DNA of 37,243 bases from Bacteriovoracaceae bacterium (GTDB lineage Bacteria > Bdellovibrionota > Bacteriovoracia > Bacteriovoracales > Bacteriovoracaceae). The notes under the pieces are model-generated. The model was given only the letters and a program-made list of their open reading frames with translations. It made no database searches and had not been told where the DNA came from. The position numbers and the translations under genes were made by a program. Location: assembly GCA_016784965.1 (NCBI GenBank), contig JADHTQ010000044.1, forward strand, positions 1 to 37,243. Reading direction: 5' to 3'. Shown here one piece after another: positions 1,922-36,563 of this stretch (position 1 is the stretch's first letter; the number at the start of each line of letters is the position of its first letter).

Positions 1922-2965
1922 ATGAAATATAGAATCTACCAATTTTTCAAGTCTCTATACTCTATCATGTTTAAGAGTGCTTTGGATAAAGACATTGAGA
2001 TAATGGCATTAAGACAACAACTTGCCAATTATCAAGTAAACAAAATTAAACCACAAATAAACAATTATGATCGGCTTTTCTGGATTGTCCTTAGTAAGTT
2101 TTGGAATAGATGGGAGCAAGTCTTAAATATTGTAAGCCCCCAAACGGTGATCAGTTGGCATCGCAGAGGATTTAGATTGTTTTGGAAGCTTAAATGCCGA
2201 CATAAAAAAGTTGGACGTCCAAAGATCTCTAAGGAAATTATAGTGTTGATTAAGAAAATGAGGTCGGAAAACAATTGGGGAGCACCCAGAATTCACGGAG
2301 AGCTTTTAAAGCTCGGATTTGATATCTCTGAATCAACCATTTCAAACTACATACCCAGATGGTCTCCAACTGGTCTGCAACGACAAAATTGGAAAACATT
2401 TTTGCATAACCATATTCACAATACTGTATCGATGGACTTTTTTGTTGTTCCCACCATTACTTTTGAATTGCTATACTGTTTAATTATCTTTGAACACTCA
2501 AGAAGAAGAGTTATTCATTTTAATATCACAGATCACCCCTACTCTGAATGGATAGAGCAACAAATTAGAGAAGCATTCCCTTATAAGCATAATTATAAAT
2601 ACTTTATCCATGACAATGATAAAAAATTTGGCATCAATGTGAAGAAAATAATTGAGGATTTTGAGTTGATCGACAAACCCACTTCATTCAGATCTCCGTG
2701 GCAAAATCCATATTGCGAAAGAATGATTGGCACAATAAGGAGAGAATTATTAGACCATATTATTGTTATGGGTGAATCACACTTGCAAAGATTATTAATT
2801 AGCTATTTTGATTATTATCACAATGACCGAACTCATATGGGCATTAGCAAGGATTCACCATGCTCAAGAGAAACATCGCGAAGAAAATCGGAAAAAGACA
2901 ATGTTGTTTCAATCAACAAAGTTGGTGGGCTTCACCATCGGTATGATTGGTCCACAGCTGCCTGA
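1922..2965 (+). CDS. DDE transposase / integrase-core protein
   Basis: A 347-residue single-ORF transposase with an rve (integrase core) fold. An N-terminal helical region leads into an HTH (about residues 95-145, GRPKISKEIIVLIKKM onward). The catalytic triad is readable as D172 (SMDFF), D231 (HDNDKKF) and E266 (NPYCERMIG), giving the DD-34/35-E spacing of IS3/IS481-type enzymes. The C-terminal YHNDRTHMGISKDSP motif is also typical. The frame is intact. I could not find terminal inverted repeats or a target duplication, so the element boundaries are unknown and it may be an orphan. Confidence 0.85.
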   Translation: MKYRIYQFFKSLYSIMFKSALDKDIEIMALRQQLANYQVNKIKPQINNYDRLFWIVLSKFWNRWEQVLNIVSPQTVISWHRRGFRLFWKLKCRHKKVGRPKISKEIIVLIKKMRSENNWGAPRIHGELLKLGFDISESTISNYIPRWSPTGLQRQNWKTFLHNHIHNTVSMDFFVVPTITFELLYCLIIFEHSRRRVIHFNITDHPYSEWIEQQIREAFPYKHNYKYFIHDNDKKFGINVKKIIEDFELIDKPTSFRSPWQNPYCERMIGTIRRELLDHIIVMGESHLQRLLISYFDYYHNDRTHMGISKDSPCSRETSRRKSEKDNVVSINKVGGLHHRYDWSTAA

Positions 2966-30822: not shown

Positions 30823-31734
30823 TTACTCTTTTAGATCATTTACAACATGAATCAAAGATTTCCTGTCATCAATGGTCCAAACATCAATTGTAGGATCACT
30901 GTCAATATTTCCTATGGCAACAGCTTTAAATCTTTCTTTATTGGCAAAACAGTCTGAGCAGAATCTTTTAAACAAAGCTGATGTATCAGTAAAACCAAAT
31001 TTATAGAACTTCATTCCTGTTGGTTCAAAACCTATATTAATTAAGTCAGACGAATATGTCCCTTCTTCAGCATGATTTTGCATTTGAGCAACATAAATAG
31101 AAGCAAGACCTATTTTTGCCTCTGATGTTTTTGATTTGCTCTGAACTTTCTTTAAATTAGGAATTAAAAGAGCAGAAATGACACCTAAAAGCATTATGCC
31201 GCCAAAAAAACCTACAATAGCAAATAAAAATCCAGCAATGGACCAGTTTTTTTGTACTCGATTGAAATGGGCAGCATCTTTCCATGTACCATTTTTCCAT
31301 GCCCACTCTCTTCCCCTAAACAACAAGACGATAGATATTAGAATATTGAGTCCTGGAACTAACCCCAGTAAGGATATCCAAGTTTTATTAAAGATTCCCC
31401 ATATAAAAGTAAGAAAAAATCCCCCCCAGCAAAGTCCCTTGAGATTATTTGGTTGATCTTTGTTCATGCTTTTTGATGCTATTGTTTTGCGACTACTATT
31501 TGCACCAATTTTAAGTGTTGTAGGACGTCTTAGACTGGGTTTTTTGACCTCATTTTTGCTTTCTTTGCTACCAGAATCACTTTTTTTGGACGTACCTTGT
31601 TTATCATTACTGACTGAAGAACTGGCGGTAATTTTTACTACTGCTGAACATTCTGGGCATTTTGTCCGTTTTCCAATGTACTCATCTTTAACTTTTTTCT
31701 TAATATTACAAGATTCGCAGTACAAAATGGCCAT
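30823..31734 (-). CDS. Zinc-ribbon membrane protein with pilin-like C-terminal domain
   Basis: A 303-residue protein of unusual order. Residues 1-35 form a zinc ribbon (YCESCNIKKK...KCPECSAVV). Residues 36-95 are a Ser/Lys-rich linker. Residues 100-190 hold three or four hydrophobic helices around FRGREWAWKNGTW. From about 175 the sequence MLLGVISALLIPNLKKVQSKSKTSEAKIGLASIYVAQMQ copies the N-terminal helix of type IV pilins (IPN, SEAK, AQ), followed by a Cys pair (CSDC). No prepilin peptidase site or Glu5 is visible, so it probably stays in the membrane. GAGG precedes the start. Function unknown. Confidence 0.75.
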   Translation of the reverse strand: MAILYCESCNIKKKVKDEYIGKRTKCPECSAVVKITASSSVSNDKQGTSKKSDSGSKESKNEVKKPSLRRPTTLKIGANSSRKTIASKSMNKDQPNNLKGLCWGGFFLTFIWGIFNKTWISLLGLVPGLNILISIVLLFRGREWAWKNGTWKDAAHFNRVQKNWSIAGFLFAIVGFFGGIMLLGVISALLIPNLKKVQSKSKTSEAKIGLASIYVAQMQNHAEEGTYSSDLINIGFEPTGMKFYKFGFTDTSALFKRFCSDCFANKERFKAVAIGNIDSDPTIDVWTIDDRKSLIHVVNDLKE

Positions 31735-32478: not shown

Positions 32479-33525
32479 TCATAAATTCAACGCGCTCAAG
32501 GACAACATTTTTGGTCCTTTTTTATGAGGTTTAATCCTACTCTCTCTTGTCCACGAAGAGATGATGTCATATACTTCCCAAGAAGTGGTAAGTCCTACAT
32601 GACTTAATCCTCTAATCTGTTTTAAATGTTCGGGATAAAAATGGAGATCTTGGTTTTCATCCTCGGATTGCCCAAAAGCACTCTTGGAAGTTACCATTGA
32701 ATCTCCCACCATTTTGGCCAGAAAATTTTGTGGATTTTTTATAATGATGCTGGAGATGGCAAAATGGACAATGTCTGGGTGAAGTGGAACACTTACTTTA
32801 GTATTTGAAAAAAGAGAATCGGGGTTTTTGCCTTTCCACTGATCATCAACTAAATATCCATGTCGCAGATCTTTTATTCCTGAGCTTCTTAAATTGATAA
32901 TGTTTTTGGCCATATTGGTAAATGGATAGGGCAATATGTTCAAAATAGTAGTTGCCATGTTTCCAAATTTTTCCAGAGGTGCACCCAAATGAGGGCAACC
33001 AAGATAGAAAATCCTCGAAACTTTTTTGGGCCATTTTAAATGCTTACCATAATGACAAGCACTTCTGCTAACCAGACCTCCCATGCTATGAGCAATAATA
33101 ATGATTTCACTGATAGAACTGCAAAACAGGCGCTCAAGTTTTTCCATTAACTTAGAAAGTGACCTTCCATTTTGTGAAATATGCAAGCCGGTGTTGTAGC
33201 GTAAGTAAAGAGGAATAAATCCAAATTCCTCTTTTAATAATTGACCATAATCACTGCAGCCTTCAGGCTTCCACGTTTGATGATCATCCATAACCCCATG
33301 GACTAAAAGACATATTTTAATATTTTTTTGATCTTTGAAAATACTTTTTAAACTTCTCTTATTAAGTGGAATCAATTTATTATTTGAATACAACCCCATT
33401 TCAATGTTAAGTTGCTCAAATCTCCGATCGCCCAAAAGACCGTTAAAGATGCTCTGTGGTCTTTTCAGTAAGTCCATAGAGCATTCTTTAACCCTGGATA
33501 TCTTTTGTTTTAAATTTGCTGGCAT
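32479..33525 (-). CDS. Alpha/beta-hydrolase, lipase-like
   Basis: A 348-residue hydrolase without signal peptide. ICLLVHGVMDDHQTW is the oxyanion strand, IIIIAHSMGGLVSRSA contains the catalytic Ser (AHSMGG), and IFYLGCPHLGAPLEKFGN is typical of PGAP1/LipA-like esterases. A catalytic His is likely in GLSHVGL near residue 325. The ATG is 3 nt after the stop of the Cys-repeat exported protein, so the two are coupled. Substrate probably a lipid or ester; an effector role is speculation. Confidence 0.82.
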   Translation of the reverse strand: MPANLKQKISRVKECSMDLLKRPQSIFNGLLGDRRFEQLNIEMGLYSNNKLIPLNKRSLKSIFKDQKNIKICLLVHGVMDDHQTWKPEGCSDYGQLLKEEFGFIPLYLRYNTGLHISQNGRSLSKLMEKLERLFCSSISEIIIIAHSMGGLVSRSACHYGKHLKWPKKVSRIFYLGCPHLGAPLEKFGNMATTILNILPYPFTNMAKNIINLRSSGIKDLRHGYLVDDQWKGKNPDSLFSNTKVSVPLHPDIVHFAISSIIIKNPQNFLAKMVGDSMVTSKSAFGQSEDENQDLHFYPEHLKQIRGLSHVGLTTSWEVYDIISSWTRESRIKPHKKGPKMLSLSALNL

Positions 33526-33528
33526 TAA

Positions 33529-34176
33529 TTAAAGTTCAAAGCACTGAATTGTTCCACTAGCAGTAGTCATAGAATCGCAGTCCATTACATGTCTAGACGT
33601 ATAACGTCTACCCATAATAACTCGAGCACAACTTAAAGCCTGACTATCATCATTAATTCTTGCACAGGCCTTGGCGGCATCGTCTTGCATTCTTTCATTT
33701 GCAGTTACCATCATACATTGAGTAGTAGCTGTCGCTGTTTTCAATTGGTCACAAAAATCTATTGCTGATGGTTCATAATAATTATTCATAGCATTTGAAA
33801 TACAGTTTATTGCTTCTGTATCATCATTAATGCGAGCACATGCCTTTTGGGCAGAATACTCTAAGTCCTGATCTCTTAAAATTCTCATACATCTAACCGT
33901 AGGTGTGGCATTTTTTAGCTGGTCGCAAAACTCGATTGAACTTTGAGCAAAATAGTAATTTCTGACAACCAGAAAGCACTCTAGTTTTATTTCATCATCA
34001 TTAATTCTTCGACAAACATCTCTTGGAGATTTGTTTACTGCTTTGTTGAATAAATATTGGATATGTTCTGATTTTCCTGACTCTTGTTGCCCTAAAGAAC
34101 TATCATCCTTTGCTGTGGCAATTGAAGTTGTTAAAATTACAGCAGAAAATATTAATAACAAAAGTTTCATTTTCAT
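33529..34176 (-). CDS. Exported protein of six 29-residue Cys repeats
   Basis: A 215-residue protein with a signal peptide (cleavage near ATA-KD, residue 22). After a short linker the 12 cysteines are at 55, 67, 84, 96, 113, 125, 142, 154, 171, 183, 200 and 212: spacings alternate 12 and 17 without exception. The repeat is therefore 29 residues (C-x11-C-x16). Odd units read ARINDD, even units FCDQLKTAT. Helix-turn-helix pairs stapled by disulfides are likely. GGAG lies before ATG 34176; ATG 34170 is an alternative. I do not recognise the family. Directly coupled to the lipase-like gene. Confidence 0.82.
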   Translation of the reverse strand: MKMKLLLLIFSAVILTTSIATAKDDSSLGQQESGKSEHIQYLFNKAVNKSPRDVCRRINDDEIKLECFLVVRNYYFAQSSIEFCDQLKNATPTVRCMRILRDQDLEYSAQKACARINDDTEAINCISNAMNNYYEPSAIDFCDQLKTATATTQCMMVTANERMQDDAAKACARINDDSQALSCARVIMGRRYTSRHVMDCDSMTTASGTIQCFEL

Positions 34177-35912: not shown

Positions 35913-36563
35913 TCAATATTGTTGTTCTGGCCCATCAATATACACTTCTGTATCATCATCAGAAATAGATTCTGAATCGCCAAACCAATCAATATCATAA
36001 AATTTGATAGGTAATCTAAAAATTACTGAATCCCGCTCACTATGAATCCCTAACCCTATTCCTAGCCCCACTTTTTCATTTTCCACCTTATCTTCGTAAT
36101 CATGACTTCTATACCCACGCAATTCATGAGAGTCATCACGTTTATATTTACTCACAAATTGCTTATTCTTTGAGGACAACAGTATGCCAATTACAGTTTC
36201 ACAAGCTATATGGACACAAAAGTTATCTGTTTCTGCATACATAATAAGTTCATCGATTACCGATCTATCCATATGTATCTCAGAGTAGTTTAAGTTGATG
36301 GCACCACCCATACCAAAACCATTACCAAATGAGGCCATCGGAACGAAGTGCATTTCCAATACTATACCAGAGTCTCTATCCCTTGTTTTACATATTGCAA
36401 AATCTAATTCGACTGCAATGCCAATCAACACAGCTACATCAACGCTTGCACCTAAAGCATAGCAATTTACAGAAGTATTCTCATCTGATCGCTCTACATC
36501 AGTTGCATGAGCAAAACTCAAAAAAACTAGTAATATGATGAAAAAAGTAGTCGTAAACTTCAT
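35913..36563 (-). CDS. Exported protein of unknown function
   Basis: A 216-residue protein with a clear signal peptide (MKFTTTFFIILLVFLSFAHA, cleavage after AHA). The mature part has four Cys (about residues 34, 58, 114 and 120), Gly-rich strands (GNGFGMGG and GLGIGLGIH) that could form a beta barrel, and a very acidic end. GGAG lies before ATG 36563. No family recognised. Confidence 0.65.
   Translation of the reverse strand: MKFTTTFFIILLVFLSFAHATDVERSDENTSVNCYALGASVDVAVLIGIAVELDFAICKTRDRDSGIVLEMHFVPMASFGNGFGMGGAINLNYSEIHMDRSVIDELIMYAETDNFCVHIACETVIGILLSSKNKQFVSKYKRDDSHELRGYRSHDYEDKVENEKVGLGIGLGIHSERDSVIFRLPIKFYDIDWFGDSESISDDDTEVYIDGPEQQY

Follow-up and report, generated by a model that had tools for sequence, protein, structure and literature searches.

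The window analysed here, a stretch of 37,243 nucleotides from a Bacteriovoracaceae bacterium, carries on its minus strand a gene whose predicted product holds 12 cysteines at strictly alternating distances. The locus raises the question of what kind of protein such a spacing describes, whether the rule is confined to this protein, and which cysteines might be paired with each other.

A twelve-cysteine repeat protein

Translation of positions 33529-34176 on the minus strand confirmed the 12 Cys, at residues 55, 67, 84, 96, 113, 125, 142, 154, 171, 183, 200 and 212, and the strict alternation that had been reported for them, since the intervals are exactly 12, 17, 12, 17, 12, 17, 12, 17, 12, 17 and 12 (11/11 alternating). 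If 12 Cys were placed randomly in the mature chain, the probability of this pattern would be about 1e-17. An AGGAG box lies upstream of the ATGs, with a spacing that is better for Met3 than for Met1, and all 12 Cys are kept by orthologues from two other genera; together these observations show that a real gene is present. An orthologue in another genus is 48% identical to the window protein. The signal peptide proposed earlier is likewise evident at the N-terminus, and the features of the gene are as follows:

33529..34176 (-), gene for the 12-Cys, predicted exported helical repeat protein of 215 aa, or of 213 aa with Met3 as the start
34111..34176 (-), putative type I signal peptide, residues 1-22, read from the sequence: basic MKMK, hydrophobic core and A-x-A, cleavage likely after ATA
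33952..34038 (-), unit 1 (odd type), residues 47-75, Cys55/Cys67
33865..33951 (-), unit 2 (even type), residues 76-104, Cys84/Cys96
33778..33864 (-), unit 3 (odd type), residues 105-133, Cys113/Cys125
33691..33777 (-), unit 4 (even type), residues 134-162, Cys142/Cys154
33604..33690 (-), unit 5 (odd type), residues 163-191, Cys171/Cys183
33532..33603 (-), unit 6 (even type; stops 3 residues past its second Cys), residues 192-215, Cys200/Cys212

The original prediction described this array as six 29-residue repeats without an indel. While the spacing is exact, the units are not six equivalents. Units 1, 3 and 5 are of an ARINDD type and units 2, 4 and 6 of a CDQLK type, and with Cys excluded the identity is 30% between units of the same parity vs 8.7% between units of opposite parity. 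When the orthologues from the two other genera were considered, identity was ~45% between equivalent units, 28-29% within the same parity and 9% across parities. The gap between 30% and about 9% indicates that the true period is 58 residues, the repeat being 3 x 58 residues in two-hairpin modules, and the ARINDD/CDQLK alternation noted earlier is borne out as this super-repeat. Because the odd/even alternation is kept in the orthologues, it predates the split of the genera. No DNA-level tandem repeat was detected within the gene by TRF, which argues that the duplications are old.

Structure prediction, one of two checks suggested with the original prediction, was run with AlphaFold2 on an alignment of two sequences only (the window protein and the orthologue at locus L013) and returned a confident all-helix array, with pLDDT about 90 (83-95) over residues 51-215. 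The model comprises 12 short repeat helices (H78-85, H90-100, H107-114 and H119-130 among them) and one low-confidence helix preceding them; the orthologue, modelled from its single sequence, gave a largely similar pattern of helices, though with less confidence. Foldseek against the PDB returned nothing below E 0.078, with designed helical repeats dominating the top, and the best VIA-align Z was 5.7, a common value for helical arrays. That neither program found a natural fold match is in itself no proof of a new fold. The designed repeats (DHR8, 5cwf; O43_129, 8v2d) share with the window protein the overall short-helix arrangement alone (Foldseek E 0.08-0.2, VIA Z up to 5.7); these scores are typical of helical arrangements, and the proteins are not homologous.

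A repeat family in Bdellovibrionota and its relation to known families

Used as the sole query, the window protein found few relatives, with one close orthologue, in a Bacteriovoracia MAG, among 84,980 genomes. Nothing credible was matched by sequence in Pfam, NCBIfam, PHROGs, PADLOC or PDB, tblastn of the plasmid and phage collections and a search of viral contigs with this single protein gave no match, and no description of this Cys-hairpin repeat was found in the literature. The other suggested check, a profile HMM search, was carried out with two profiles of three-unit segments in 369 Bdellovibrionota genomes at E up to 1e-5, and matches were obtained in 77 (profile A3) and 74 (profile A6) of them. 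The spacing rule is not confined to the window protein; it is shared by a broad family, most members of which have a short interval of 12, with a range of 10-16 overall and often a uniform value inside one protein. As judged from sequence, the window protein is a member of a widespread, undescribed Bdellovibrionota repeat family, and it is the single copy of that family in its source genome.

The fetched loci yielded 83 distinct family proteins with at least seven architectures. A hydrophobic N-terminal segment is present in 78 of the 83, and among the remainder at least three seem to be truncated or to have a wrongly placed start. The family has tandem C-x(9-15)-C hairpins of ~29 residues in exported-type proteins, and in the profile of 245 units the commonest unit reads F-D-x-x-A-L-x-V-C-x-x-I/L-S-F-D-S-D-K-L-x-C-L-x-x-I-x-N-K. 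Architectures include repeats alone, three units followed by a C-terminal segment with Cys 38-39 apart, a coiled coil with at least four units, four to five units with Cys-containing C-terminal domains, three units with one further domain, and two repeat blocks with a linker between them. Two loci stand for larger arrangements:

L084:938-5594 (-), four tandem Cys-hairpin paralogues (343-441 aa), each with an extensive C-terminal part of unknown type
L093:2977-7227 (+), 1415-aa fusion that joins an ArsP-like permease to many Cys-hairpin repeats, FG-GAP repeats and ASPIC-UnbV

In the fusion, where another Cys-repeat stretch sits between FG-GAP blocks, the position of the repeats between the ArsP-type permease and FG-GAP/ASPIC-UnbV is the one that an extracytoplasmic location would predict.

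The original remark that no named family is known to follow the 12/17 rule holds for the window protein itself (Pfam, NCBIfam, PHROGs, PDB), but some relatives exceed the cut-off of DUF4476 (PF14771), a Pfam domain of unknown function. The family may therefore be a Cys-stapled branch of DUF4476 in which two buried hydrophobic hairpin positions became Cys after export, an account of origin that fits our preferred explanation and that we place just short of even. Two relatives score 30.6 and 24.6 bits against a cut-off of 22.5 bits, the others lying under it; 5/12 segments reach E 0.1 or better, the lowest value being 1.3e-6; and among 689 sequences the six ranked highest by a DUF4476 profile built from the phylum are family members, with both Cys columns aligned in a matching F-x-F / K-L register. 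However, the window protein itself is unmatched by DUF4476 at E up to 1, profile-profile comparison by hhalign was not significant (E 0.22 and 0.79), and the best score of the phylum-built profile was just E 0.011. The 24.6-bit relative also passes the PAN_1 cut-off, so that Cys-rich cross-matching is possible. The C-terminal domain of one relative and the N-terminal domain of a DUF4476 protein showed no similarity. DUF4476 resembles the family in its helical hairpins and a similar F-x-F-x-x-x-K-L register, whereas the members found in Bdellovibrionota are without Cys pairs. A common origin is, on balance, about an even call. DUF4476 has been mentioned in spiralian lophotrochin (PMC7441323). 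Among other Pfam matches, PAN_1 in the protein at locus L007 (30.4 vs a cut-off of 21.4) was rejected as a Cys-rich cross-match, and weak matches to CEP104_ZnF, Muskelin_N, TMV_coat, DUF6184 and others fell under cut-off.

Helicobacter HcpB and HcpC, which are Sel1-like, consist of tandem alpha/alpha hairpins, each disulfide-bridged, with a 36-residue repeat (PMC2581425). Like the window protein they are exported bacterial arrays of such hairpins, the disulfide per hairpin being described in Hcp and predicted here, but their helices are TPR-like, whereas the window protein has short helices in 29-residue units with a 58-residue super-period. At E up to 1, neither the window protein nor any of 13 relatives was matched by a Sel1 or TPR Pfam model, and the period is 29 rather than 36. 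The CagY repeats of H. pylori consist of A and B motifs with regular Cys, the A motif having 38-39 residues, and disulfides have been proposed for them (PMC2581425). CagY is similar in that its repeat region is an extended alpha-helical tandem array whose Cys recur at regular positions, and its A-motif Cys28 and Cys41 are 13 apart, near the 12 of the window protein; it differs in its Lys/Glu-rich A motif, its DNA-level repeats and its being part of a type IV secretion protein. No CagY model was among the Pfam matches of the window protein or its relatives, in a library that may not include such models. The window protein's family is a new repeat family of known design, namely an alpha-hairpin array that is probably disulfide-bridged.

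Pairing of the cysteines

Cys retention was scored in 244 units with a Cys-neutral unit profile, and both Cys were present in 230 of them. Six single-Cys calls proved to be alignment shifts, every segment holding both Cys. Cys pairs have been lost jointly in one unit of the protein at locus L075, in two units each of L006 and L011 and, by inspection, in three of L087. The positions are then occupied by I, L or A, which are hydrophobic or small, and inspection of the relatives showed no clear loss of a single Cys in a unit. A disulfide inside each 12-residue interval is most likely, because pairs are lost together with no clear single loss, although the losses represent few independent lineages. 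Of the disulfide-stapled alpha-helical solenoid first envisaged, the all-helical, solenoid-like array and the export signal are supported by the AlphaFold2 model and the N-terminal sequence; the staple is favoured indirectly by the joint Cys-pair losses and by genes for oxidative folding.

Alternatively, in the same fold, disulfides could span the 17-residue interval and rivet neighbouring units, leaving the two terminal Cys free or inter-chain. AlphaFold2 helix boundaries, taken alone, are compatible with this arrangement, and some family members carry one extra Cys 14-18 residues beyond the last unit. However, the proteins at L006, L011 and L087 have pairs only in every second unit, with intact units separated by a Cys-free one, so that pairing across 17 residues would strand Cys without a partner; moreover, linkers widen the 17 interval to 29 in several members while the 12 interval is unchanged. 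We consider this pairing unlikely.

Genes that could serve oxidation are present in the source genome, in which one open frame combines two relevant domains:

G000:C49:186960-187997 (locus L128), VKOR and DsbA domains in one 388-aa open frame

This frame is likely a VKOR-DsbA fusion oxidase. Further DsbA-like genes were found and DsbB had no match in this genome; the VKOR and DsbA domains together with the DsbA-like genes make it plausible that the genome is able to oxidise such proteins.

Our preferred explanation, which we consider probable, is that the window protein is an exported helical repeat rod of the Bdellovibrionota family, with one disulfide per 29-residue unit and three 58-residue modules, serving as an envelope scaffold. 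In each unit a short helix would lead through a turn of 4 residues into a second helix. One Cys would lie close to where the first helix ends and the other close to the middle of the second, the two being joined by the unit's one disulfide. Paired units would make up a 58-residue module, three of which may build a rigid rod with two alternating faces, and oxidation would be carried out by the VKOR-DsbA system. The family as a whole could provide a building block of envelope proteins across Bdellovibrionota.

Possible roles and neighbouring genes

The most likely function of such a rod, as we infer, would be that of a stable scaffold, either for protein binding or as a spacer, located in the periplasm or at the outer surface. 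Neither a conserved neighbour nor a partner or phenotype that would favour a particular function was found, nor any evidence tying the window protein to predation. More tentatively, stapled short-helix solenoids might be an undescribed, standard and expandable building block of the envelope and secreted proteins of this predatory phylum, and may serve prey contact or life inside prey; we regard this broader proposal as possible but doubtful. The family is mostly missed by present protein libraries and follows clear rules (hairpins of 29 residues, a single Cys pair in each unit, gain or loss of units in register). Designed helical repeats with built-in disulfides have in it a counterpart from nature, and it gives exported proteins to test in predatory bacteria, whose secreted proteins often have no assigned role.

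The gene downstream suggests a more specific role:

32479..33525 (-), PGAP1/LCAT-like alpha/beta hydrolase, beginning 3 bp past the repeat-gene stop

The hydrolase has no evident Shine-Dalgarno, and this together with the 3-bp gap suggests that the two genes are possibly translationally coupled, as would suit a rod that is a partner or regulator of the enzyme. However, a signal peptide is not evident on the hydrolase, and the gene neighbours differ in the two closest relatives of the window protein, where the hydrolase is not conserved; it is for this latter reason a lead only, and we judge the partnership improbable. Least probable of all is binding of a cofactor or of a metal such as copper or zinc by the Cys pairs, in place of disulfide formation: the strict pairing of the Cys in an exported protein and their joint loss would fit, but the profile of 245 units has no other conserved ligand (His or Met at a fixed site), hydrophobic or small residues stand in for lost Cys, and no metal-binding family was matched.

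Three other frames of the window were recorded. A 216-aa ORF at 35913-36563 (-) was unmatched in Pfam and appears to encode a signal peptide. The 303-aa protein encoded at 30823-31734 (-) carries a zinc-ribbon-like CxxC...CxxC at its N-terminus, and its match to type IV pilin (PilA) is weak and under cut-off. At the window start, an ORF at 1922-2965 (+) is integrase/transposase-like, as read from its sequence.
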